Positions 33,518 to 50,276 of a stretch of 64,000 nt of DNA are shown piece by piece. A model generated the notes under the pieces. The model saw nothing but the letters and a program-made list of their open reading frames with translations. It was not told the DNA's origin and made no database searches. A program made the translations under genes and the position numbers. The stretch spans positions 62,001-126,000 of the forward strand of contig NZ_CP146612.1 in the NCBI RefSeq assembly GCF_037094495.1, written 5' to 3'. Position 1 is the first letter of the stretch, and each line of letters starts with the position of its first letter. The stretch comes from Dehalogenimonas sp. W. GTDB taxonomy: Bacteria; Chloroflexota; Dehalococcoidia; Dehalococcoidales; Dehalococcoidaceae.

Positions 33518-35503
33518 GTGAAACAAGACCATTCCGAAAAGCTACCGTCGGTTGCGCCTGATTCCCGCCAAGCGGAGGGTCCCTGCCGTACAATCCTGGA
33601 TAACGCCCCTGATGCCATAATCCTCTGGGAGTTCTGCGGGGCTGACCAGCCTTTCCGTATTGTTGAAGCCAATAGAAGTGCCTGCGAACGATTTGGCTAT
33701 AGCCGCCAGGAAATGTTAGGCCTGACCGGCCGGGAATTGAATGCACCGGATAGTTACATCAATGTCGGTGACATATCCCGACTCTTGTCTGAACGGGGCT
33801 ACGCCGTCTACGAGATGGCGCATCTGAGCAAAGACGGACGGCGCATTCCTGCCGAGGTCGCCGGTCAGCAGTTCCAACTTGACGGCAAAACCATGGTCGT
33901 GTCCGTCATCCGGGATATTACCGAGCGAAAACGATTGGAACTGCGCAATCAGGGGTTGACTTCCTTCCCACTGGCCAACCCCAATCCAGTGTTACGGGTC
34001 AACCCGGATGGTAAAATCACCTTCGCCAATCCAGCCTCCGCGCCTTTGCTTGTACAATGGCAACCCGGCACCGACGGCCGGTTGCCGGCCCCATGGCCTG
34101 ATATTATCGGTGAAGTGTTCCGCTCCGGTTGCCGGAAGATAACGGAAATCACCTGCCGCAACCAGGTATTTTCCTTAACCCTGAATCCGGACGTAGAAAA
34201 TAGCTACATCAACCTTTACGCCCTTGACATTACTGATCGCCGGCGGATGGAAGACGAAATCAAGGAAAAGCGGGATTTTCTGGAGCGCCTGAATGACTCA
34301 CTGCCGGAAGCTGTTTTTAACCTGGATCACCCGGGACACCGGATAGTATACGTTAATCAGCAGGTCAGTAAGATATACGGATATACTCCCCGGGAATGCC
34401 TCGGCCAGACAATGGAGTTCCTGTTTAACTCGCCGGAGGATTTCCAAGATTATGACGGTGAATTAACCCGGTCCATTGAACGTGATGAACATTACCGGGC
34501 TTTTGAGTTGTTCCAGCAGAACAAAAACGGAGAGCGATTTCCCTGCGAAATTATCCAGAACTTTACCCATCGGCCGGACGGTTCTCTGGGAATCATCATC
34601 ATTGTCCGGGACATCAGCGAGCGCCGGCAAGCCCAGGCGGAAATTGAAATTTACCAACATCATCTGGAAGACATGGTTCTGGAACGAACCCGGGAACTGG
34701 AGCTGGAGATAAAATCCCGGTTGAAAGCCGAGGCGGAACTTAGAGAACTGTTTGAAAGAGAACGTTCCCTGAGTACGGAACTAAAAAAGCAAATTGAGGA
34801 ACGATTGCTGTTCACCCGCGGCCTGGTGCATGAACTGAAAACGCCGCTGACGCCGCTGATTACCGCGTCTGATTATCTGGAACAACATCTAAACGATGAC
34901 ACTGCCCGCAGTTTCGCTCATAACATTCATACCGGCGCTTTGAATATGGAAAAAAGGGTCAACGAATTACTGGACCTGGCTCAAGGCGAAGTGGGCACGC
35001 TGAAAATCCATCCGTCCCGATTTAACCTGAATGAACTCCTGGTCAGTATCGTGGGATATATGCGGCCGGATGCCGAACGGCGGAACCAGCGGTTGGAACT
35101 GAACCTGCCGGAGCAGCAATTATTCCTCAATGCCGACCCCGACCGTTTGCGTCAGGTGATTTCCAATTTACTGGCCAATTCCTTCAAGTTCACCCGGCGC
35201 GGCGGCTGGGTCAAACTGACGGTTGAAGAAGAAGAAGAATCCGTGGTAATCAGTGTCACAGACAATGGTTCCGGCATTGACGAATCCGAACAACCCTTTG
35301 TTTTCCAGGCCTATCATCGCGGTCAGACTTCGGAAAAAAGCCGCTTAAGCGGCCTGGGATTGGGCTTGACCCTTTCCCGGATGTTCGTGGAACTCCACGG
35401 CGGACGGATCTGGTTTGAATCAAGCAAAGGCGAAGGCAGCACCTTTTATGTCAAAGTCCCCATCAATAAGCAAGGAGAAAAAGATGAAAATACTCATCGT
35501 TGA
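33518..35503 (+). CDS. soluble multi-PAS sensor histidine kinase
   Basis: 661 aa with no transmembrane segment, so a cytoplasmic sensor. PAS 1 (about 25-145, ILDNAPDAIILWEF ... VIRDITERKR), a PAS-like region (150-240) and PAS 3 (about 255-375, VIRDISERRQ-type end) come first. A coiled coil (380-435), a HisKA motif LVHELKTPLTPLI (His about residue 440) and an HATPase with N box VISNLLANSFKFT, G1 VTDNGSGID and G2 GLGLGLTLSRMF follow. GTG start. It overlaps the response regulator by 20 nt. The PAS domains could bind heme, flavin or a small ligand; nothing visible decides which. Confidence 0.9.
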   Translation: MKQDHSEKLPSVAPDSRQAEGPCRTILDNAPDAIILWEFCGADQPFRIVEANRSACERFGYSRQEMLGLTGRELNAPDSYINVGDISRLLSERGYAVYEMAHLSKDGRRIPAEVAGQQFQLDGKTMVVSVIRDITERKRLELRNQGLTSFPLANPNPVLRVNPDGKITFANPASAPLLVQWQPGTDGRLPAPWPDIIGEVFRSGCRKITEITCRNQVFSLTLNPDVENSYINLYALDITDRRRMEDEIKEKRDFLERLNDSLPEAVFNLDHPGHRIVYVNQQVSKIYGYTPRECLGQTMEFLFNSPEDFQDYDGELTRSIERDEHYRAFELFQQNKNGERFPCEIIQNFTHRPDGSLGIIIIVRDISERRQAQAEIEIYQHHLEDMVLERTRELELEIKSRLKAEAELRELFERERSLSTELKKQIEERLLFTRGLVHELKTPLTPLITASDYLEQHLNDDTARSFAHNIHTGALNMEKRVNELLDLAQGEVGTLKIHPSRFNLNELLVSIVGYMRPDAERRNQRLELNLPEQQLFLNADPDRLRQVISNLLANSFKFTRRGGWVKLTVEEEEESVVISVTDNGSGIDESEQPFVFQAYHRGQTSEKSRLSGLGLGLTLSRMFVELHGGRIWFESSKGEGSTFYVKVPINKQGEKDENTHR

Positions 35504-36216: not shown

Positions 36217-38394
36217 TTATTCCTGATTCCAAACCGATGCTACCGGGAGCAGTACGGTGAAAACAGCTCCGCCGTCCGGATTGTTATCAGCATAGATCTG
36301 GCCGTAGTTTTGGGTCACGATACCGTGGCATACTGACAAGCCGAGACCGGTACCTTGCCCAACTTCCCGCGTGGTGAAAAACGGGTCAAACACCCGTTTA
36401 AGGTCTTCCTCCGGTATGCCGGAACCGTTGTCGCTAAAACTGACTGCAACTTTATCTGCCATCAGCCAAGTTGTAATGACCAATTGTCTGGGCTGATTTT
36501 TCGCTTTGAGTTCAGTCACCGCATTTATAATGACATTCAAAAAAACCTGTTGTATCTGGGCGGCATCAACAAAAAACGGCGGTAAATCCTCCGCCATGTC
36601 AGTCACCAGGTTAATCCCGTAATGCTCCAACTCGCAGGTCTGCAGTTCCACAGTTTCCCGGACCAGGCAATTGACGTCCACCGCTTCCCGCACCTGTAAG
36701 CGAGAGCCGGCAAAGGTCATCAGCCGCCGGACAATACCGGCCACCCGCTGGGCACTGGTATTGATGACTTCAACATCCTCCACTATTGATTCAGGGAGCT
36801 CCTGCTGAGACAGTAATTGAGCAAAGCCGATTACAGCCGTTAGAGGATTATTGATTTCGTGAGCAATACCGGAGGCCATTTCGCCGATACTGGCCAGATG
36901 CGCCGCCAGGTTCGCCTGTTTTTCATATTTCAGCCGATCTGCTTCGGCCTGTTTCTGTGTGCTGATATCGGTCAATACCCCGACAACAGTGACGATATGT
37001 TCATCAATGAATGCTTCCAGCCCAAGAATGACCGGCAGCTTGATGCCGTCAGCAGTTAATATTTGGCACTCTCTGGGCGGAATTTCTTCCCCTGCCAGCC
37101 GACGGGCCAGGTCTTGGGCGACCAGCGGCCGGCAATCATCTAAAAACAGCTGGATGATATCATAGCCGTCTTCCAGTGATACCTTGCTTAGATACCCTGA
37201 CGCCTGTTCAAAACGACGGTTGGCGAAGGTTAATTCTCCATTTTTCAAAACAAACACCATGCTGGGCAAAAGTTCAGCCAGCGTACGGAACCGCCGTTCC
37301 GACTGCTGTAATGCCTGAGCGGCCAGTTGCCGTTCGGTGATATCCCTCAATACCTGAATAAAGCTATAACTGCCGTCGGCTTCCAGCAACGGAGCTACGG
37401 CCACTTCATAATATTTGTTGTTGATAAAGGTAATCCGGTCCGGCATACGGGTCCGGGCATTCACCTCCGGCATGGGGCAATTCTCACAGGGGTCTTTTTG
37501 ACCCAGCACCGCGTAGCAGGTGTCGCCGATGTTCGCCCCGAAGCGCCGGCGTGCCGAGCGATTCATGAAGGTAATCTGCTTGTCACGGTTGACAATGATG
37601 ACGCTGTCGCCCATGCTTTCCAGCCAGGCCTCAACACTACGGCGAACCGCCTGGCTGTCACGGTACAGCCGGGCATTTTCCAGGTTCACCGCCAGATGGC
37701 CTGCCAGGGCCAGTACCGCCCGCCGGTCTGGCTCTAAATAATCACCCCTCAAACGGGGACCAACAACGATAATTCCCACCAGCCGTCCGCCGCCGGCAGC
37801 AACCGGCACCACCAGTCTGGCATCCAGACTCTCCAGAAAACCAACTTCGGATGAACTCAGGTTCTGAAGTTCCGGCAAGGTATTTATTTCCTGCATATTC
37901 ACTGTTTTTCGCTGCTGCTCCAGCCAGGAAACCAGCCCGCCCTGGCGTCGTAGTTTATAGCCCACGGCTTCTTTGGTGGGATGACAAGCCGAAACAACGA
38001 AGTTGTCATCATCGCGTTCCGGCAGCAAAAGCCAGGCGATGCGGCATTCCAGCGCACCGGAGATAAGCTCAACGACCCGATTGTCCATTGCCTCCGGATT
38101 GGCGATACTCTGGGTTTCACGAATAAATTCGTCAAGGTCTTTCAGATAATCGTAACGCCCGGCATAGTAGATACGGTCAATATGGTGCAATGCCCAGCGA
38201 AAAACCGGCCAGGAACTCCCTGCCAAAAAAATAAACAGGGCCACCAATATCCAGACATGTTCGCTTAAAACCACCAGTTGCCCGACCAACCATACTACGG
38301 CAATATACGGCAGCCCCACGACAACGGCTGTCACCAGATAGGCCAGAGCCCGGCGGGGGAATACCTGGTCAGTCAGAAATTCACGAAAGGCCAT
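36217..38394 (-). CDS. membrane-associated GAF-PAS-PAS sensor histidine kinase
   Basis: 725 aa from the ATG at 38394 (AAGGGG 5 nt upstream). A GTG two codons further up is also possible. Two N-terminal helices (about 18-40 and 48-68), a GAF domain (about 95-240), PAS 1 (250-370, including the cysteines GDTCYAVLGQKDPCENCPMP), PAS 2 (375-490), HisKA with GIAHEINNPLTAVIGFA and an HATPase ending in GTGLGLSVCHG follow. The CxxC-rich insert in PAS 1 could sense redox or metal. No response regulator is in the same transcription unit; the nearest is the convergent 35484 gene. Confidence 0.9.
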   Translation of the reverse strand: MAFREFLTDQVFPRRALAYLVTAVVVGLPYIAVVWLVGQLVVLSEHVWILVALFIFLAGSSWPVFRWALHHIDRIYYAGRYDYLKDLDEFIRETQSIANPEAMDNRVVELISGALECRIAWLLLPERDDDNFVVSACHPTKEAVGYKLRRQGGLVSWLEQQRKTVNMQEINTLPELQNLSSSEVGFLESLDARLVVPVAAGGGRLVGIIVVGPRLRGDYLEPDRRAVLALAGHLAVNLENARLYRDSQAVRRSVEAWLESMGDSVIIVNRDKQITFMNRSARRRFGANIGDTCYAVLGQKDPCENCPMPEVNARTRMPDRITFINNKYYEVAVAPLLEADGSYSFIQVLRDITERQLAAQALQQSERRFRTLAELLPSMVFVLKNGELTFANRRFEQASGYLSKVSLEDGYDIIQLFLDDCRPLVAQDLARRLAGEEIPPRECQILTADGIKLPVILGLEAFIDEHIVTVVGVLTDISTQKQAEADRLKYEKQANLAAHLASIGEMASGIAHEINNPLTAVIGFAQLLSQQELPESIVEDVEVINTSAQRVAGIVRRLMTFAGSRLQVREAVDVNCLVRETVELQTCELEHYGINLVTDMAEDLPPFFVDAAQIQQVFLNVIINAVTELKAKNQPRQLVITTWLMADKVAVSFSDNGSGIPEEDLKRVFDPFFTTREVGQGTGLGLSVCHGIVTQNYGQIYADNNPDGGAVFTVLLPVASVWNQE

Positions 38395-42854: not shown

Positions 42855-43031
42855 AGGTAGCGAATGTTAAAATCTGTACTTGCCTGGCCAAACTGCGCAA
42901 TACGGCAAGCAGTTGTAGTATTGCTGTTTCACAATAATGCCATATATTAGTTTAAGTCAAGAGTATTTTCAATGAATATTACGGCATAATCCTTTTGATA
43001 CTGCCAATATTTTTTCAGAATAAAATTAGCC

Positions 43032-43055
43032 AAGGACTAATCCTTATGATATACT
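43032..43055 (+). promoter_or_regulatory. hydrogenase operon promoter region with inverted repeat
   Basis: Extended -10 TGA-TATACT (43047-43055), with no good -35. Just upstream AAGGA (43032-43036), CTAA, TCCTT (43041-43045) forms a perfect inverted repeat at the -35 position, where a regulator could sit. The leader would be ~80 nt. Confidence 0.45.
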
Positions 43056-43142: not shown

Positions 43143-45461
43143 ATGCCGGAGAACTCAGTACTAATCGTTGACGCCGACCCCGCTGTCAAGGAAACAGCCG
43201 TCTGGCTTAAAGGCGCCGGTTTCCGGGTCGCCACCGCAGCCACCGGAGAGGAAGCACTTAACCTGATTGACAACCAGGACTTTAGTGTCATGCTGCTGGA
43301 TATGCGTCTGCCCGGTAAACACGGTTTGGGAGTCATGCGGGAAGCCAAAATCAAGCGCCCCTGGCTTCAGACCATCGTCACCACCGACCACCCGTCGGTG
43401 GAATCAGCCACCGAAGCCTTGAGGCAAGGCGCCATGGATTACCTGGTCAAACCAATCTCACCCCAGGACCTGTCGCAACTGATTAAAGACACCATTAAAT
43501 CAGCATCCCGTCAGAAAACCGCCAATATCCAAATCAGGGCCAAAGCTACCCAGACCAAAATTTTGCCCCAGGCAGCTTTTGTCATCAGCCGGGACAGCCT
43601 CAAAACCATGGTGAACACCCTGATTGGTGAACGTGAATCCATCGGCGTTAAAGCCAAACAGGGCAAATTTGTCTATGATAAAATCAAAAGCTTTGATGAG
43701 CTGACCCTGGATTATGATGTCACCGTCAATCCGCCGACCGCGTTCTTCATTCCGGCCTGTGAAACCATCCTGCGCTACAAAATGGGAGAAAATCCCGAGA
43801 TATCACCGGTTACCGATAACACCCAGCGGGTTATCATCGGAGTCCATCCTGACGACATCAACGCCATTAACCTGCTGGATGAAGTCTTCATGACCAACAA
43901 TCCAGACCCTAATTATACCGCCCGCCGCGAAAACACCCTGATTATCGGCGTGGATGTCATGACGCCGCAGCCGGCATCCTTCGCGCCCAGCATGGGCGCC
44001 CATACCGCCGACACCGGATTTGACCTGCTGCTGACCGATATCGGCAACGCCAGCTATATCGTTACCGTTGGCTCTGAAAACGGAGCCCAAGCACTGGCGC
44101 GTTATGCACAGGTACGGGAACCGACCGTGGCTGAAACGGCACGGCAAAAACAATTACGGGATGAAGCTCTGGCCAAATATCGCCTGTTTCTGGATATGCC
44201 GCGGGATAAAATCCCTAATCTACTGGATAACAACTACGACAACCCCTACTGGGCATCCCGCAGTGAGACCTGCCTCAACTGCGGCTCCTGCATCATGGTC
44301 TGCCCCACCTGCTTCTGTTTTGACGTTCAGGATGACGTATCATTGAATCTGGTTGACGGAGAAAGGGTACGCAAACCGGATGGTTGCATGCTGGTGGATT
44401 TCTCCCGGGTAGCCGCCGGGGCTAACTTCCGCGGCGACAAGATGAGCCGCTACCGCCACCGGATGTATCACAAGGGTAAGTACATCCTTGACCGTTACGG
44501 CAAATTCGGATGCGTCGGTTGCGGCCGCTGTGCCATCGCATGCCTGGCGGAAATCGCCAGCCCGTTGGAAGCCTACAATGCCATCGCCGCCAGTGAAAAA
44601 GCCAAGGAAAAAGCCCGCCGTACGGTCACTAATACCCGACCTCAACCGGAGCTCTACCTGCCTCACCTGGCCAAAATTGAGAAGGTGACGCCGCTGTCTG
44701 GCCGGGAAAAATTGTTTGAATTCCGGCTTAACGACGGAAACAAGCTGGGGCACCGGCCAGGGCAGTTCATTGAAGTGTACGTCTTCGGCATCGGTGAATC
44801 GCCAATCTCGCTAACCTCGTCACCCACCCGCGACCATACCTTTGAAGTCGCCGTCCGAAATGTCGGTAACGTTACCGGCGCCCTTCACCGCCTTGAGGAA
44901 GGGGCATCAGTGGGTATCCGCGGGCCTTTCGGCAACGGCTTTCCGCTGGAACAGATGGAAGGCAAGGATATATTATTTATCGCCGGCGGCATCGGGGTTT
45001 TTCCGCTACGTTCCCTCATTCAGTACGTCCTGGATCGCCGGGATTCATACGGCCATATCAATCTGCTGTTCGGCGCCCGGTCCCCGGCGGAACGGGTTTT
45101 TGCTGATGAAATGCAGGAATGGGCGCAGGCGCCTGACGTTACCTTCCTGGAAACCGTAGATAAAGGTGACGACACCTGGGAAGGCAACGTCGGTGTAATT
45201 ACTACCCTGATTCCTAAAATTCAATTCAATCCTAAAAATACGGTGGCGATTGTGGTCGGTCCGCCGATAATGTACCGTTTCGTAATCAACGAACTTAAGA
45301 AACGCGACCTGGCAGATGACAATATCATCGTTTCCCTGGAGCGCAAAATGAAGTGCGGCGTTGGAAAATGCGGCAACTGCCAGATCAACGGTGTCTATGT
45401 CTGCCAGGAAGGGCCAGTCTTCAGTATGACCCAGTTGCGCACGTTAAGGGAGGCCATTTAA
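43143..45461 (+). CDS. receiver domain - ferredoxin - flavin/NAD reductase fusion, hydrogenase diaphorase subunit
   Basis: 772 aa, three parts. Residues 1-125 are a CheY-like receiver with the full active site: Asp10 and Asp12, phospho-acceptor Asp53 (MLLDMRLPG), Thr80/81 and Lys103 (DYLVKPI). The middle (about 135-490) is like the beta subunit of group 3b hydrogenases and AsrA, with two cluster motifs, CLNCGSCIMVCPTC (from ~376) and CVGCGRCAIAC (from ~456). The C-terminal ~280 residues are AsrB/PyrK-like: a ferredoxin-reductase fold with FAD site, NAD motif IAGGIGVFPLRSLI and a [2Fe-2S] set CGVGKCGNC ... YVC. In related hydrogenases these are two proteins without a receiver. It should carry electrons between the [NiFe] subunits and NAD(P). 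RBS AGGGGGG. Its stop overlaps the next ATG. Confidence 0.88.
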   Translation: MPENSVLIVDADPAVKETAVWLKGAGFRVATAATGEEALNLIDNQDFSVMLLDMRLPGKHGLGVMREAKIKRPWLQTIVTTDHPSVESATEALRQGAMDYLVKPISPQDLSQLIKDTIKSASRQKTANIQIRAKATQTKILPQAAFVISRDSLKTMVNTLIGERESIGVKAKQGKFVYDKIKSFDELTLDYDVTVNPPTAFFIPACETILRYKMGENPEISPVTDNTQRVIIGVHPDDINAINLLDEVFMTNNPDPNYTARRENTLIIGVDVMTPQPASFAPSMGAHTADTGFDLLLTDIGNASYIVTVGSENGAQALARYAQVREPTVAETARQKQLRDEALAKYRLFLDMPRDKIPNLLDNNYDNPYWASRSETCLNCGSCIMVCPTCFCFDVQDDVSLNLVDGERVRKPDGCMLVDFSRVAAGANFRGDKMSRYRHRMYHKGKYILDRYGKFGCVGCGRCAIACLAEIASPLEAYNAIAASEKAKEKARRTVTNTRPQPELYLPHLAKIEKVTPLSGREKLFEFRLNDGNKLGHRPGQFIEVYVFGIGESPISLTSSPTRDHTFEVAVRNVGNVTGALHRLEEGASVGIRGPFGNGFPLEQMEGKDILFIAGGIGVFPLRSLIQYVLDRRDSYGHINLLFGARSPAERVFADEMQEWAQAPDVTFLETVDKGDDTWEGNVGVITTLIPKIQFNPKNTVAIVVGPPIMYRFVINELKKRDLADDNIIVSLERKMKCGVGKCGNCQINGVYVCQEGPVFSMTQLRTLREAI

Positions 45462-46210
45462 TGAAACCAAGAGTAGCATTTTTTGATTTTACCAGTTGCG
45501 AGGGCTGTCAACTTGATGCCCTGAATCTGGAACCGGCAGAACTGCTGGACCTGTTGGGGGCGGTTGACATCGTGAACTTCCGTGAAGTTAAGACAGACCG
45601 TTCCGAGGAATATGATATCGCCTTCATTGAAGGCAGTATCACCCGGGAATCCGAGATTGCCCGCCTTCAAGACATGCGTGAGAAGGCCAAGGTACTGGTT
45701 GCGCTGGGGGCCTGCGCCTGTACCGGGGGTGTTAATTGCCTCAAAAACGCCTATGAAACTGAAGACCTCTTAAAAGGCGTGTACGGCGAATGCGCAGGAT
45801 ACTACAACTCTATACCAGCCCGCCCAGTTAATGCCGTCGTCACCGTTGATGCTTATATCCGCGGCTGTCCGCCGACCACCGCCGAATTCGTCAAGGTGGT
45901 CAAAGCCATGCTGCTGGGTAAAAAGCCGGATCTGCCGAATTACCCGGTCTGCACTGAATGTCGCCAAGCCGGCAATGTGTGTGTTTTTCAGCGGGGCGGC
46001 ACCTGTATCGGCCCGGTGACCCGTGCTGGTTGCGACGCGCTCTGCGTCAGCGCCGGACGTTTCTGCTGGGGTTGTCGCGGTCTGGTGGATGACCCCAACA
46101 CCGGCTCAGAGAAAGACGTCCTGACCCGGTACGGCCTGACGGTGGACCAGATATTGGAACATTTCAGAATTTATAACTCCTGCTCGGAGGCTTCTCAATG
46201 TCAGAAATAA
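45461..46210 (+). CDS. [NiFe] hydrogenase small subunit, group 3 type
   Basis: 249 aa cytoplasmic small subunit (no Tat signal). The proximal [4Fe-4S] ligands are TSCEGCQLD (C13, C16), GACACTGG (C85 or C87) and RGCPPT (C136). A Cys-rich C-terminal part (CTECRQAGNVC, CIGPVTRAGCDALC, FCWGCRG) holds two more clusters. It relays electrons from the [NiFe] site to the fused diaphorase. Its ATG overlaps the upstream TAA by one base, with GGGAGG upstream, and it overlaps the large-subunit gene by 13 nt. Confidence 0.93.
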   Translation: MKPRVAFFDFTSCEGCQLDALNLEPAELLDLLGAVDIVNFREVKTDRSEEYDIAFIEGSITRESEIARLQDMREKAKVLVALGACACTGGVNCLKNAYETEDLLKGVYGECAGYYNSIPARPVNAVVTVDAYIRGCPPTTAEFVKVVKAMLLGKKPDLPNYPVCTECRQAGNVCVFQRGGTCIGPVTRAGCDALCVSAGRFCWGCRGLVDDPNTGSEKDVLTRYGLTVDQILEHFRIYNSCSEASQCQK

Positions 46211-47469
46211 AAATCAATGTCAATCAACTCACCCGCGTAGAGGGTCACGGCAACATTCATCTGGAAGCGACCGACGGCAAGCTTGACCGGGTACTCTGGG
46301 AAGTAACCGAGTCTCCCCGGTTTTTTGAATGGATGTTGAGGGGCCGCAATTACGATGACGTTTCCATAATTTCATCCCGTATCTGCGGCATCTGCTCTAT
46401 CGCTCACACCACGGCCTCTCTTCAGGCGACCGAAGCGGCCTTCAACATCAAATTATCCGAACAGTCATGGCTTTTGCGTAAGCTGTTGTATAACGCGGAA
46501 CTGCTGGAAAGTCACGTCCTGCATGTTTTGTTCCTGGTGGCACCGGATTTCCTGGGAGTTGACTCGGTTATCCCTCTGGTAGCTACCCACGGCGATGTCG
46601 TGGTTATGGCCGTTCGGCTGAAAAAACTGGCTTATAACCTGGCAGAGGTGTTGGCAGGACGAAAAACCCATCCCATCACCCCGGTAGTCGGCGGGTGGAG
46701 CCAATTACCCGACATTGATGCTTTGAAAGCCATCCGGGAGCGCCTGGAAAAAGCCATGGAAGACATGGATACGATGGTAGCCGTCGTCAAGACGCTGGCA
46801 CCCGGCATTCCTGACTTTCAGCGTCCCACCGAATACGTCGCTCTCAAAGATAACAAAGAATACGCCTTCATCACCGGTAAAATAGCCTCCAGCGACGGCG
46901 GCACCACCAGCCTGAATGACTATCAGCAGGTGACCAACGAGTTCTGTGTCCCCCATTCATCATCCAAATTCACCAAACACAAGCGGGATTCCTACATGGT
47001 GGGTGCGCTGTCCCGCTTTAATCTGAATTCAGACCAACTGCTGCCCCGAGCCAAAAAAGTAGCCCGGGAGCTTGGAATGAAAGCCCCGATTAATAATCCG
47101 TTTATGATTTCCGTAGCCCAGACGGTAGAGACGGTACATGCGGTTGAAGATGCCATCAACATTATTGATAAGTTGCTGGCCCGTGGCCTCCATGAAGAAG
47201 AGGTCAAGGTCAAACCGCGCGCCGGCCGCGGCGTGGGCATTGTTGAAGCACCGAGAGGCATGCTGATTCATGACTACACTTATGATGATAACGGCCATAT
47301 CGTATCCGCTAACTGCATCATCCCTACCGGTCAGAATCACCTGTCTATTCAGAAGGACTTTGATGCCCTGGCACCGACCGTTCTGGAAAAGCCGGAGGAA
47401 GAAATTCGGCATACCCTGGAAATGCTGGTACGGGCTTATGACCCTTGTATCTCCTGCTCCGTCCATTAA
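46198..47469 (+). CDS. [NiFe] hydrogenase large (catalytic) subunit, group 3b-like, without C-terminal extension
   Basis: 423 aa. The four nickel ligands are Cys63 and Cys66 (RICGICSIAH) and Cys417 and Cys420 (DPCISCSVH). The N-terminal NQLTRVEGHGNIHLEA is typical. The protein ends exactly at His423, where maturation proteases normally cut, so no peptide needs removal. Group 3 enzymes are cytoplasmic and reversible, coupling H2 to NAD(P) or similar. The 3b assignment rests on the AsrA/AsrB-like partner and recall of the DPCISCSVH motif. No hyp maturation genes lie in the window. Confidence 0.94.
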   Translation: MSEIKINVNQLTRVEGHGNIHLEATDGKLDRVLWEVTESPRFFEWMLRGRNYDDVSIISSRICGICSIAHTTASLQATEAAFNIKLSEQSWLLRKLLYNAELLESHVLHVLFLVAPDFLGVDSVIPLVATHGDVVVMAVRLKKLAYNLAEVLAGRKTHPITPVVGGWSQLPDIDALKAIRERLEKAMEDMDTMVAVVKTLAPGIPDFQRPTEYVALKDNKEYAFITGKIASSDGGTTSLNDYQQVTNEFCVPHSSSKFTKHKRDSYMVGALSRFNLNSDQLLPRAKKVARELGMKAPINNPFMISVAQTVETVHAVEDAINIIDKLLARGLHEEEVKVKPRAGRGVGIVEAPRGMLIHDYTYDDNGHIVSANCIIPTGQNHLSIQKDFDALAPTVLEKPEEEIRHTLEMLVRAYDPCISCSVH

Positions 47470-47489
47470 AATCCACGACTGGTATACCA

Positions 47490-47525
47490 GAAGCGCCCGG
47501 TTTATGAACCGGGCGCTTCTTTTTT
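47490..47525 (+). terminator. hydrogenase operon terminator
   Basis: 13-bp stem GAAGCGCCCGGTT (47490-47502), loop TATG, AACCGGGCGCTTC (47507-47519), then six T's. Confidence 0.93.
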
Positions 47526-47548
47526 GCAAAACTCCTTCTCAAGCAGCT

Positions 47549-47582: not shown

Positions 47583-50276
47583 ATGAACACTACATGGCAT
47601 TCAGTCTCTACCTCGGAGGTACTAGAGGCCTTCAGCGTGACTATGGATGGCTTGAATGACAGCAATGTCACATCCAGGCAGGAACGATACGGCCTCAACC
47701 GCCTGGAAACCAAGCCGCCGAAATCACTCATCGTGATGTTTTTCAAGCAGTTTTTGAATCCTTTGATATATATATTGCTGGTTGCAGCCATCGTTTCAGT
47801 TGCGACATCCCACGTTATTGACGCCGCGGTCATACTGGTGATATTACTGATTAATGCCGTCATCGGATTCATTCAGGAAACCAGGGCGGAAAAGGCGATG
47901 GAGGCCTTGAAAGAACTGGCGGCACCGCAAACCCAGGTGCGCCGCAGCGGTAAATTGAGAAGGCTCCCCTCCGGCGAGATAGTACCCGGCGATATTATAA
48001 TTGTTGAGGCTGGCGACAGAGTCCCTGCAGATGCCCGCCTCCTGGAATCGGCAGGGCTTAAGGTCAATGAATCCACCCTCACTGGCGAATCTCAACCAGG
48101 CGAAAAATCTATTTCACCCCTGCCGGCGGATAACTCTCTTGCTGACCGTCGGAATATGCTTTACCTGGGTACTTCGGTAGTCCAGGGGCGTGGTGTAGCC
48201 GTGGTCACCGGTACCGGCATGGGTACCGAACTGGGTCGTATCACCAGCAGTCTTGAATCTATTGATTCAGGATTAACCCCCTTACAAAAAAGTATCAACC
48301 GCCTCGGTAAAATTTTGGTAGTCGTCATGCTGGGCGTGGTCAGTGTTATCTTTACTGTGGGAATCTGGAGGGGATTGGACACAGTTGAGATGTTTTTCCT
48401 CGCAGTGGCCGCCGCGGTCTCAGCCATCCCGGAGGGTCTACCGGCAGTTGTCACCGTAGTTCTGGCCATCGGTATGCGGCTCATGGCTCAACGTAACGCC
48501 ATTATCCGACACCTGGTGGCAGTGGAAACACTTGGTTCCGCAACAGTCATCTGTTCTGACAAGACGGGAACGCTGACTATGAACCAGATGACCCTGCGGA
48601 GTCTGTATTACAATGGTAGAAACGTAGAGGTGACAGGCGAAGGTTATTGTCCTAACGGAGAATTCAGATTTGACGGCCATAGGCTGGAACCGGAAACGGA
48701 TGACTCCTTAAAGCTGCTACTAACTGCCGGTATTTTGGCCTCCGATTCCACTATTACCGTCGGTGAAAATGAATGCTCATTGTTCGGAGACCCTACCGAA
48801 GGAGCCATCCTGGTAGCCGGTGCCAAGGCAAATCTGCTCAAGGAGACATTGGCTGAAAACAATCCCCGATTGAGTGAAATCGCCTTTTCCAGCGACCTGC
48901 AATACATGGCTACACTCAATAACTCCCCGGACGGTCATATAGCCTACGTCAAGGGGGCAGCTGAAAAGCTTATTGAAATGAGTTCCCATGTTTGGCTGAG
49001 AGGAAAAAAAACAACTGTGACAAGCGACTACCGGCAGGAGCTTCACCAGCAGGTTAGTGACATGGCTACGCAAGCCTTGAGAGTGCTTGCCCTGGCGTAT
49101 GCTGACATGCCTCGGGATCTCACCCGCCTCACTCCAAATGACCTGAGCGGCCGTTTGACGCTCCTGGGGCTGGTCGGGTTATTTGACCCGCCTCGTCCAG
49201 AAGCCACCGAAGCCATCCGGCAGGCAACCGCCGCCGGCATCCGGGTCGTCATGATTACCGGCGACCATGTAACTACGGCCGAGGCCGTAGCCCGCGAAAT
49301 TGGCTTACCTGTCGGTAAAGCCGTCAGCGGGCGGGAGCTGGCGGCCATGAGTGATAACGAGTTGCAACAACAGATAGAGCACATTACCGTTTTCGCCCGC
49401 ATTGAGCCATTACATAAATTAAGACTGGTTCAGGCATTACAAAGCCGCGGGCACGTGGTTGCCATGACCGGTGACGGCGTCAATGATGCCCCGGCGCTCA
49501 AAGCGGCAGATATCGGGGTAGCTATGGGACGATCGGGTACTGACGTGGCCCGTGAGTCAGCGGACATGGTGCTCACTGATGACAACTTCGCCTCTGTAGT
49601 AGCAGCAGTTGATGAAGGTCGCGCCATTTTTAATCGTTTGCGTAATGTGGTCTACTATTTATTGTCCAGTAATATCGGGGAGCTCCTGATGCTGACTGCC
49701 GCCATTGCTGTGCTGGGTCAGGCACCGCTGCTGGCGGTTCAGATACTCTGGATTAATGTCATGACGGATACCACCATCACCATTCCTCTGGGTCTGGAAC
49801 CTAAATCCGGTGATGAACTCAACCACCCGCCTCGCTCGCCTAAAGTAGGCCTCCTCTATCCCGGACTCATATTACGAGTGGCTTACACCGCTGTCCTGAT
49901 GGCTGCCGGAGTGTTCCTGGTTTTTGCCTGGGCGCGGGAACATATGGATATTGACGAGGCCAGAACACTGGCCTTCAGCACCATGATTGCGTTTGAATGG
50001 TTTAAAGGATTCATCGCCCGATCTGACGAAAAATCCATCTTTAGACTGGGAGTATTTACCAACCGCTGGCTACTAATAGCTGTCGGAATCGCCATAATCT
50101 TGCAGTTACTGGTGGTTTATAGCCCGTTCTTGCAGACGGCTTTTCATACCGCTCCATTTGAACCGCAATACTGGCTGATTGCCGTCGGAGCCGGGTTGAC
50201 GCTCTTTGTAATAGAAGAGATTCGCAAGATATTGTTCCCTTTGGCCTTCTCCAAAGGCAAGTGGCGCAGGAGTTAA
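47583..50276 (+). CDS. P2A-type cation (Ca2+) transporting P-type ATPase
   Basis: 897 aa. Order: N-terminal cytosolic segment, M1-M2, actuator domain with TLTGESQPGEKS, M3-M4 with AIPEGLPAVV (ion site in M4), P-domain with phospho-Asp326 (SDKTGTLTMNQM), nucleotide domain with YVKGAAEKL, MTGDGVNDAPALKAADIGVAMG, and six C-terminal helices. The motifs match SERCA/PMR1-like Ca2+ or Mn2+ pumps. Ion preference is inferred. It has its own leaderless promoter after the hydrogenase terminator. Confidence 0.92.
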   Translation: MNTTWHSVSTSEVLEAFSVTMDGLNDSNVTSRQERYGLNRLETKPPKSLIVMFFKQFLNPLIYILLVAAIVSVATSHVIDAAVILVILLINAVIGFIQETRAEKAMEALKELAAPQTQVRRSGKLRRLPSGEIVPGDIIIVEAGDRVPADARLLESAGLKVNESTLTGESQPGEKSISPLPADNSLADRRNMLYLGTSVVQGRGVAVVTGTGMGTELGRITSSLESIDSGLTPLQKSINRLGKILVVVMLGVVSVIFTVGIWRGLDTVEMFFLAVAAAVSAIPEGLPAVVTVVLAIGMRLMAQRNAIIRHLVAVETLGSATVICSDKTGTLTMNQMTLRSLYYNGRNVEVTGEGYCPNGEFRFDGHRLEPETDDSLKLLLTAGILASDSTITVGENECSLFGDPTEGAILVAGAKANLLKETLAENNPRLSEIAFSSDLQYMATLNNSPDGHIAYVKGAAEKLIEMSSHVWLRGKKTTVTSDYRQELHQQVSDMATQALRVLALAYADMPRDLTRLTPNDLSGRLTLLGLVGLFDPPRPEATEAIRQATAAGIRVVMITGDHVTTAEAVAREIGLPVGKAVSGRELAAMSDNELQQQIEHITVFARIEPLHKLRLVQALQSRGHVVAMTGDGVNDAPALKAADIGVAMGRSGTDVARESADMVLTDDNFASVVAAVDEGRAIFNRLRNVVYYLLSSNIGELLMLTAAIAVLGQAPLLAVQILWINVMTDTTITIPLGLEPKSGDELNHPPRSPKVGLLYPGLILRVAYTAVLMAAGVFLVFAWAREHMDIDEARTLAFSTMIAFEWFKGFIARSDEKSIFRLGVFTNRWLLIAVGIAIILQLLVVYSPFLQTAFHTAPFEPQYWLIAVGAGLTLFVIEEIRKILFPLAFSKGKWRRS

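Follow-up and report, generated by a model that had tools for sequence, protein, structure and literature searches.

Genes and enzyme modules at the locus

The window, a stretch of 64,000 nucleotides taken as a whole from the Dehalogenimonas sp. W genome (contig NZ_CP146612.1, positions 62,001 to 126,000), contains a gene in which a receiver domain is joined to the electron-transfer modules of a hydrogenase, followed by the genes of the two [NiFe] subunits:

43027..43055, + strand: promoter-like match (9/12, with TG before the second hexamer), weak and near chance frequency
43143..45461, + strand: receiver-beta-gamma fusion gene, 772 aa, one open frame with Pfam and NCBIfam domains and orthologues in 18 other genomes
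45461..46210, + strand: [NiFe] hydrogenase small (delta) subunit, 249 aa, from domain matches; its start overlaps the stop of the fusion gene (TAATG)
46198..47469, + strand: [NiFe] hydrogenase large (alpha) subunit, 423 aa, from domain matches; it ends exactly at DPCISCSVH
47489..47528, + strand: intrinsic-terminator-like site, a 14-bp stem followed by a T run, closing the three-gene operon

The fusion gene and the small-subunit gene are predicted to be translationally coupled, and the small- and large-subunit genes also overlap each other. Because of the TAATG overlap, this second overlap and the terminator stem, the fusion, small-subunit and large-subunit genes read as an operon of three genes that contains no kinase. 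The W genome consists of one contig of 1,772,240 bases, in which the reductive dehalogenase family has 29 matches. In the window, the gene after the operon is cation-transport P-type ATPase-like (47583-50276); among the seven other genomes of the genus examined it follows the operon only in G001, and therefore is probably no part of the hydrogenase system.

Four segments can be distinguished in the fusion protein:

43158..43484, + strand: receiver (pseudo-receiver) domain, residues 6-114 (PF00072, 76.9 bits; residue table)
43485..43637, + strand: linker from receiver to beta module, fast-evolving and partly predicted to be disordered (pN/pS 0.26; pLDDT <50 to about residue 142)
43638..44558, + strand: beta module, AsrA/HydB-like, with two 4Fe-4S motifs, residues 166-472 (ShyB, 3.2e-61; alignment to 9nez_B; Foldseek)
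44637..45446, + strand: gamma module, HydG/AsrB-like, with FAD, NAD and [2Fe-2S] domains, residues 499-768 (NCBIfam, 5.9e-81; 9nez_C)

The Pfam match to Response_reg at residues 6-114 is well above its cut-off of 30.2 bits, and is followed by Fer4_22 (a 4Fe-4S dicluster domain, residues 376-471), FAD_binding_6 (511-598), NAD_binding_1 (612-714) and a 2Fe-2S domain (733-765). In NCBIfam, residues 170-471 match ShyB, the sulfhydrogenase beta subunit, and residues 499-768 match the sulfhydrogenase gamma subunit (HydG, 2.3e-65). The large subunit (PF00374, 1.6e-33; ShyA, 1.3e-84) has both CxxC pairs of the NiFe site, in RICGICSIAH and DPCISCSVH, and the small subunit is of the HydD/ShyD type (HydD, 2.2e-57), its top PDB match being the delta chain of Pyrococcus furiosus SHI (1.3e-50). 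The initial annotation had described an in-frame join of a receiver to AsrA-like ferredoxin and AsrB-like domains, with the [NiFe] small- and large-subunit genes directly after it, and the single frame and the domain matches bear out both statements. A full-length structure model supports the beta and gamma folds and leaves the placement of the receiver unsupported (receiver pLDDT mostly <55); a model of the receiver alone, built without an alignment, was uninformative (mean pLDDT 51.7).

Among solved structures, the four chains of P. furiosus SHI (sulfhydrogenase 1, group 3b; PDB 9nez, 9nf0) are the best relatives, together with, for the large subunit, the cytosolic [NiFe] hydrogenase 5yxy. 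The alpha, beta, gamma and delta modules of SHI all align with the W enzyme, chains B and C being the top PDB matches of the fused beta and gamma modules, and the cysteines of both 4Fe-4S motifs of beta (aligned to 9nez_B) and of the 2Fe-2S site of gamma are conserved; in Foldseek the beta module matches SHI with a TMt of 0.88. The beta and gamma subunits of SHI, however, are separate and receiver-free, whereas those of W are fused and carry a receiver, and SHI alpha (428 residues) extends four residues beyond the aligned final His, at which W alpha stops. DPCISCSVH forms the exact end of the large subunit in all eight Dehalogenimonas genomes, and DPCISCSTH that in G056, so that in these there is no C-terminal extension to be cleaved, while other relatives have a tail of about 7 residues. 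The curated cut-offs of the named sulfhydrogenase equivalogs HydABDG/ShyABCD are not reached (HydG 220.7 vs 650, ShyA 284.5 vs 700), and by its domain scores the enzyme is to be regarded as a relative of the named sulfhydrogenases belonging to a different equivalog. The anaerobic sulfite reductase subunits AsrA and AsrB (TIGR02910, TIGR02911) have ferredoxin and FAD/NAD/[2Fe-2S] modules homologous to those of the fusion, but the W protein is well below their curated cut-offs (121 vs 323 and 220 vs 289), and the genes that follow it are those of a hydrogenase, with no sulfite reductase catalytic subunit.

Homologues of Hup, Vhu-type and F420-reducing hydrogenases have been reported in all Dehalogenimonas (PMC13390414), and the enzyme described here may be the F420-reducing homologue of that account; in the excerpts of that paper that deal with Dehalogenimonas hydrogenases, a receiver is not mentioned. 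No description of this receiver-hydrogenase fusion was found in the published open-licence papers.

Distribution of the fusion in Dehalococcoidia

Full-length homologues are present in the seven other genomes of the genus, at 84-87% identity to the W fusion, and homologues of the receiver and beta module in other Dehalococcoidia show 54-60% identity. The same architecture was found in the same order (G050, G056, G084, G085 and G143-146) and in the same class (G526, G783 and G565, the copy in G565 being cut by the contig end), the triple fusion amounting to 19 genomes in total, 8 of Dehalogenimonas and 11 of other Dehalococcoidia. The assemblies of many relatives are fragmented, with short contigs, and the gene order in relatives comes from open reading frames and not from curated annotation. 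The family's other genus (three genomes, 1.4-1.5 Mb) has no such enzyme, the best large-subunit matches being partial and 29-39% identical. A frameshift or assembly error at the fusion, which the initial annotation had named among the findings that would refute it, was not found: the frame is open in the same way in the 19 genomes, several of them single-contig, which refutes the explanation that a frameshift, a mis-assembly or a misread start had joined two genes and leaves it a negligible probability.

In a tree of the beta domain, the fused sequences fall without exception into one clade (100/99). The beta-gamma fusions of G024 and G054 are receiver-less, and since their sequences are nested inside this clade, adjoining G084 and G085, the receiver was lost in them. 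The topology fits a single origin of the fusion within Dehalococcoidia, as a class, followed by a single loss of its receiver. The gene order agrees with such a loss, an HTH gene being followed by a lone receiver and the fusion in G085, and a gene of the same HTH type directly by the beta-gamma fusion in G054 and G024. In the G024 protein (L019:1465-3234) some 55 residues of its FAD domain are also missing, and the C-terminal end is different; the cause may be a genuine deletion, decay of the gene or a faulty assembly.

Receiver-less beta-gamma fusions are found also in Firmicutes, Spirochaetes, Phycisphaerae and other Chloroflexi. The earlier statement that the beta and gamma subunits of group 3b enzymes are separate and receiver-free thus describes the usual arrangement, but not a universal one. 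No receiver was found in the N-terminal extensions of the receiver-less loci outside Dehalococcoidia, nor was a receiver fused to beta-gamma detected there among the best 80 contig loci or in a 400-genome phylum sample, a non-exhaustive set with partial taxon sampling outside the order. A contig scan with the single W protein as query gave no matches.

Active site of the fused receiver and selection acting on it

In CheY numbering, the acidic pair of the receiver active site consists of D12 and D13. The corresponding positions in the W receiver are residues 10 and 11, Asp12 being only the residue that follows. The active-site positions, taken from the residue table, are these:

43170-43172, + strand: DD1, Asp10
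43173-43175, + strand: DD2 position, Ala11 replacing the acidic residue
43299-43301, + strand: Asp53, the phosphoacceptor position
43383-43385, + strand: Thr81
43386-43388, + strand: T+1, Asp82
43449-43451, + strand: Lys103

The description of this domain as an intact CheY-like receiver was accurate as to Asp53, Thr81 and Lys103, but not as to the acidic pair, given as Asp10/12: residue 11 is Ala, and an Asp follows Thr81. These features are common to the genus. In all eight Dehalogenimonas the DD2 position is Ala or Ser (Ser in six of them) and T+1 is Asp, and Asp53, Thr81, Lys103 and the conserved aromatic residue Tyr100 are all present. DD2 is kept by the 28 other receivers of the W genome with the position aligned (28/28), the second Asp by the 21 unfused relatives in the residue table (21/21), and D-D-E by seven fusions from other genera; it was lost separately in four fusions of the genus g36, which have E-S-D. 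Asp53 is present in the 14 aligned fusions and invariant in the 19 tabulated ones, with Lys103 changed to Arg in one and Thr81 to Ala in one.

Receivers without any one of the five active-site residues have been defined as pseudo-receivers (Bourret et al. 2025, PMC12632262), and the same work describes DD2 as a direct metal (Mg2+) ligand and reports that in these proteins small residues are less frequent at T+1 and the loop around it is more negatively charged. The W domain has four of the residues DD1, DD2, D, T and K that make up a canonical receiver, DD2 being the one missing, and, unlike an aspartate-less receiver (ALR), in which the phosphoacceptor Asp is missing, it has Asp53. Because DD2 is missing and T+1 is Asp, the fused receiver of Dehalogenimonas is classed here, from its residues, as a pseudo-receiver by the definition of PMC12632262. 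It shares with the bacterial pseudo-receivers of that work the receiver fold, the missing DD2 and an acidic, atypical T+1, and differs from them in being joined to a hydrogenase electron-transfer chain and not to a usual regulatory output.

A receiver altered in this way could be a relic of the fusion, a decaying passenger with no present function in Dehalogenimonas. The loss of the receiver in G024 and G054, which nevertheless keep the beta-gamma fusion, would be in line with this, as would the fact that active-site changes arose twice among the fused receivers. The stem branches of the receiver are also long in comparison with those of beta (0.56 vs 0.35 for the genus and 0.65 vs 0.21 for g36), although the two trees were built separately, from different columns and rows. 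However, pN/pS within the genus is 0.13 for the receiver, close to beta (0.11) and gamma (0.10) and half that of the linker, and the frame is open in all eight genomes. The values indicate a receiver that is under purifying selection of nearly the strength acting on beta and gamma, and that is not decaying freely, so that a functionless relic appears improbable.

Hydrogenase-linked kinases and the role of the receiver

The presence of two histidine kinases within 10 kb of the fusion, noted in the initial annotation, was confirmed: one at 33518, with its own OmpR-type regulator, and a GAF-PAS kinase at 36217. In three of the eight genus genomes, for which a 19-kb stretch was taken, neither has a counterpart, and in the core they share 26% and 34% identity with the kinase beside the G056 fusion. 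As they are not conserved neighbours and fall outside the hydrogenase-linked kinase subfamily, they were rejected as partners of the receiver.

A linked cognate kinase is lacking in the W operon, and kinases adjoin the fusion in some of the relatives only. The order in G056 is kinase (its N-terminus cut by the contig end), lone receiver, receiver-beta-gamma, small and large subunit. A kinase with an [FeFe]-hydrogenase-like domain is found upstream of the fusion in G143 and G145, accompanied in G143 by an RpoN-like gene and an NtrC-type regulator; in G050, other members of the hydrogenase-linked subfamily adjoin [NiFe] hydrogenase genes, and G085 and G084 have related kinases of 393-397 residues downstream of the operon. 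The [FeFe]-hydrogenase-like domain is, by analogy, a putative sensor of H2 or redox state; its cysteine motifs (S-N-C-P, G-P-C-x-x-K and C-x2-C) look altered by eye. Neither an [FeFe]-domain kinase nor any other member of the hydrogenase-linked subfamily was detected in the Dehalogenimonas genomes, whose best kinase cores are 43-47% identical; the [FeFe]-domain kinases and the kinases closest to them reach 62-76% among themselves.

An RpoN-like gene, a kinase, an NtrC-type regulator and a receiver protein form a recurrent cassette in Dehalococcoidia (L240-L246, L092, L302), most of the kinases having the [FeFe]-hydrogenase-like sensor domain. In genomes without the fusion (e.g. G044, G147, G062, G087, G058 and G142) the receiver protein of the cassette usually has a TPR/Cys-rich tail, and in the g36 genomes with the fusion the last protein of the cassette is the tail alone, without a receiver. 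In the latter, a small TPR/Cys-rich protein is encoded directly 5' of the fusion (L092:10282-10692 and its equivalents in L090, L093 and L094); it has the motif CLYCxKGDVSNRVCSRLFQCKTCEFGQ and belongs to no Pfam family.

In a tree of the receivers, those fused to the enzyme group with the lone ones in a single clade (95/86), whose sister group is made up of the receivers of the cassette (95/88), the branches inside the clades being poorly resolved. The best other receiver of the W genome against the fused profile (G000:C1:1175650, an HTH-receiver followed by a kinase) lies outside the fused clade and was rejected as a separate system. A second kind of fusion, of a receiver to a HoxU-like diaphorase subunit, was found in G087, G089 and G078 (L243:1444-2445, - strand; L303, L304, L305), and its neighbours in G087 are HoxE-like and NuoF/HoxF-like genes together with the kinase cassette described above. 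It resembles the W fusion in having a receiver of a related clade on a diaphorase subunit, beside a kinase cassette in the case of G087, and differs from it in the diaphorase family (Hox/Nuo) and in being a separate fusion event. Since its receiver falls within the cassette clade, receivers of this group were joined to diaphorase subunits at least twice.

The initial annotation proposed that phosphorylation of Asp53 could alter electron flow or assembly and thereby link H2 oxidation to a two-component kinase. What stands of this is the setting in the relatives, with their kinases and sister receivers; for the organism in which it was proposed, the altered DD2 and T+1 positions and the missing subfamily kinase weaken it. 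It is possible that some kinase phosphorylates Asp53 in Dehalogenimonas in spite of the altered Mg2+ site and thereby switches electron flow or assembly: Asp53, Thr81, Lys103 and Tyr100 are kept throughout the genus, the receiver is under purifying selection, and the W genome encodes many kinases. Loss of DD2 is expected to weaken Mg2+ binding and need not abolish phosphotransfer from a kinase. On the other hand, Ala or Ser at DD2 and Asp at T+1, in 8/8 members, are both typical of pseudo-receivers (PMC12632262), and the operon is free of kinases. Because of this pseudo-receiver site, of the missing kinase subfamily, and of the position of the window kinases as non-conserved neighbours outside that subfamily, phospho-control is not the best reading for Dehalogenimonas, where we give it a rather low probability and where the main switch is probably not phosphorylation. 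It is more plausible in the relatives.

The explanation that we favour, with a confidence only somewhat above even, is that the W enzyme is a group 3b-like, NAD(P)-linked [NiFe] hydrogenase with a receiver that was ancestrally under the control of a kinase and now serves as a pseudo-receiver docking or allosteric module. Cytoplasmic alpha and delta subunits would be combined with the fused beta-gamma electron-transfer chain in an enzyme of predicted NAD(P)-linked activity, the N-terminal receiver being held on a flexible tether, as the predicted disorder of the linker suggests. Ancestrally, a hydrogenase-linked histidine kinase would have controlled the enzyme directly, via phosphorylation or docking, and this control probably still operates in those relatives whose receiver is canonical and has a kinase next to it. 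Since Dehalogenimonas has no kinase of this subfamily and an altered Mg2+ pocket (DD2 from Asp to Ala/Ser, Asp at T+1), its receiver would most likely be a folded, selected module that acts without Asp phosphorylation and influences assembly, the binding of a partner or electron flow. Two observations qualify this pseudo-receiver reading: the altered receiver of g36 is still found near an [FeFe]-domain kinase, and a purely structural role would not obviously require Asp53, Thr81 and Lys103, the retention of which counts against it.

The usual target of two-component systems is transcription or motility. A broader and more tentative proposal, to which we give less than even weight, is that the [FeFe]-sensor kinases of Dehalococcoidia act directly on receivers that NAD(P)-linked hydrogenases and diaphorases carry within their electron-transfer subunits, Dehalogenimonas having a pseudo-receiver descendant of such a system. 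If this is true, the two-component system would control a redox enzyme itself and not its transcription. A receiver placed within the electron path of a hydrogenase, and conserved across a genus of interest for bioremediation, points to a direct control of the exchange between H2 and NAD(P)H. The family would moreover provide a natural series for the passage from receiver to pseudo-receiver, with canonical domains beside kinases, degenerate domains and lost domains, all of them in the same enzyme.
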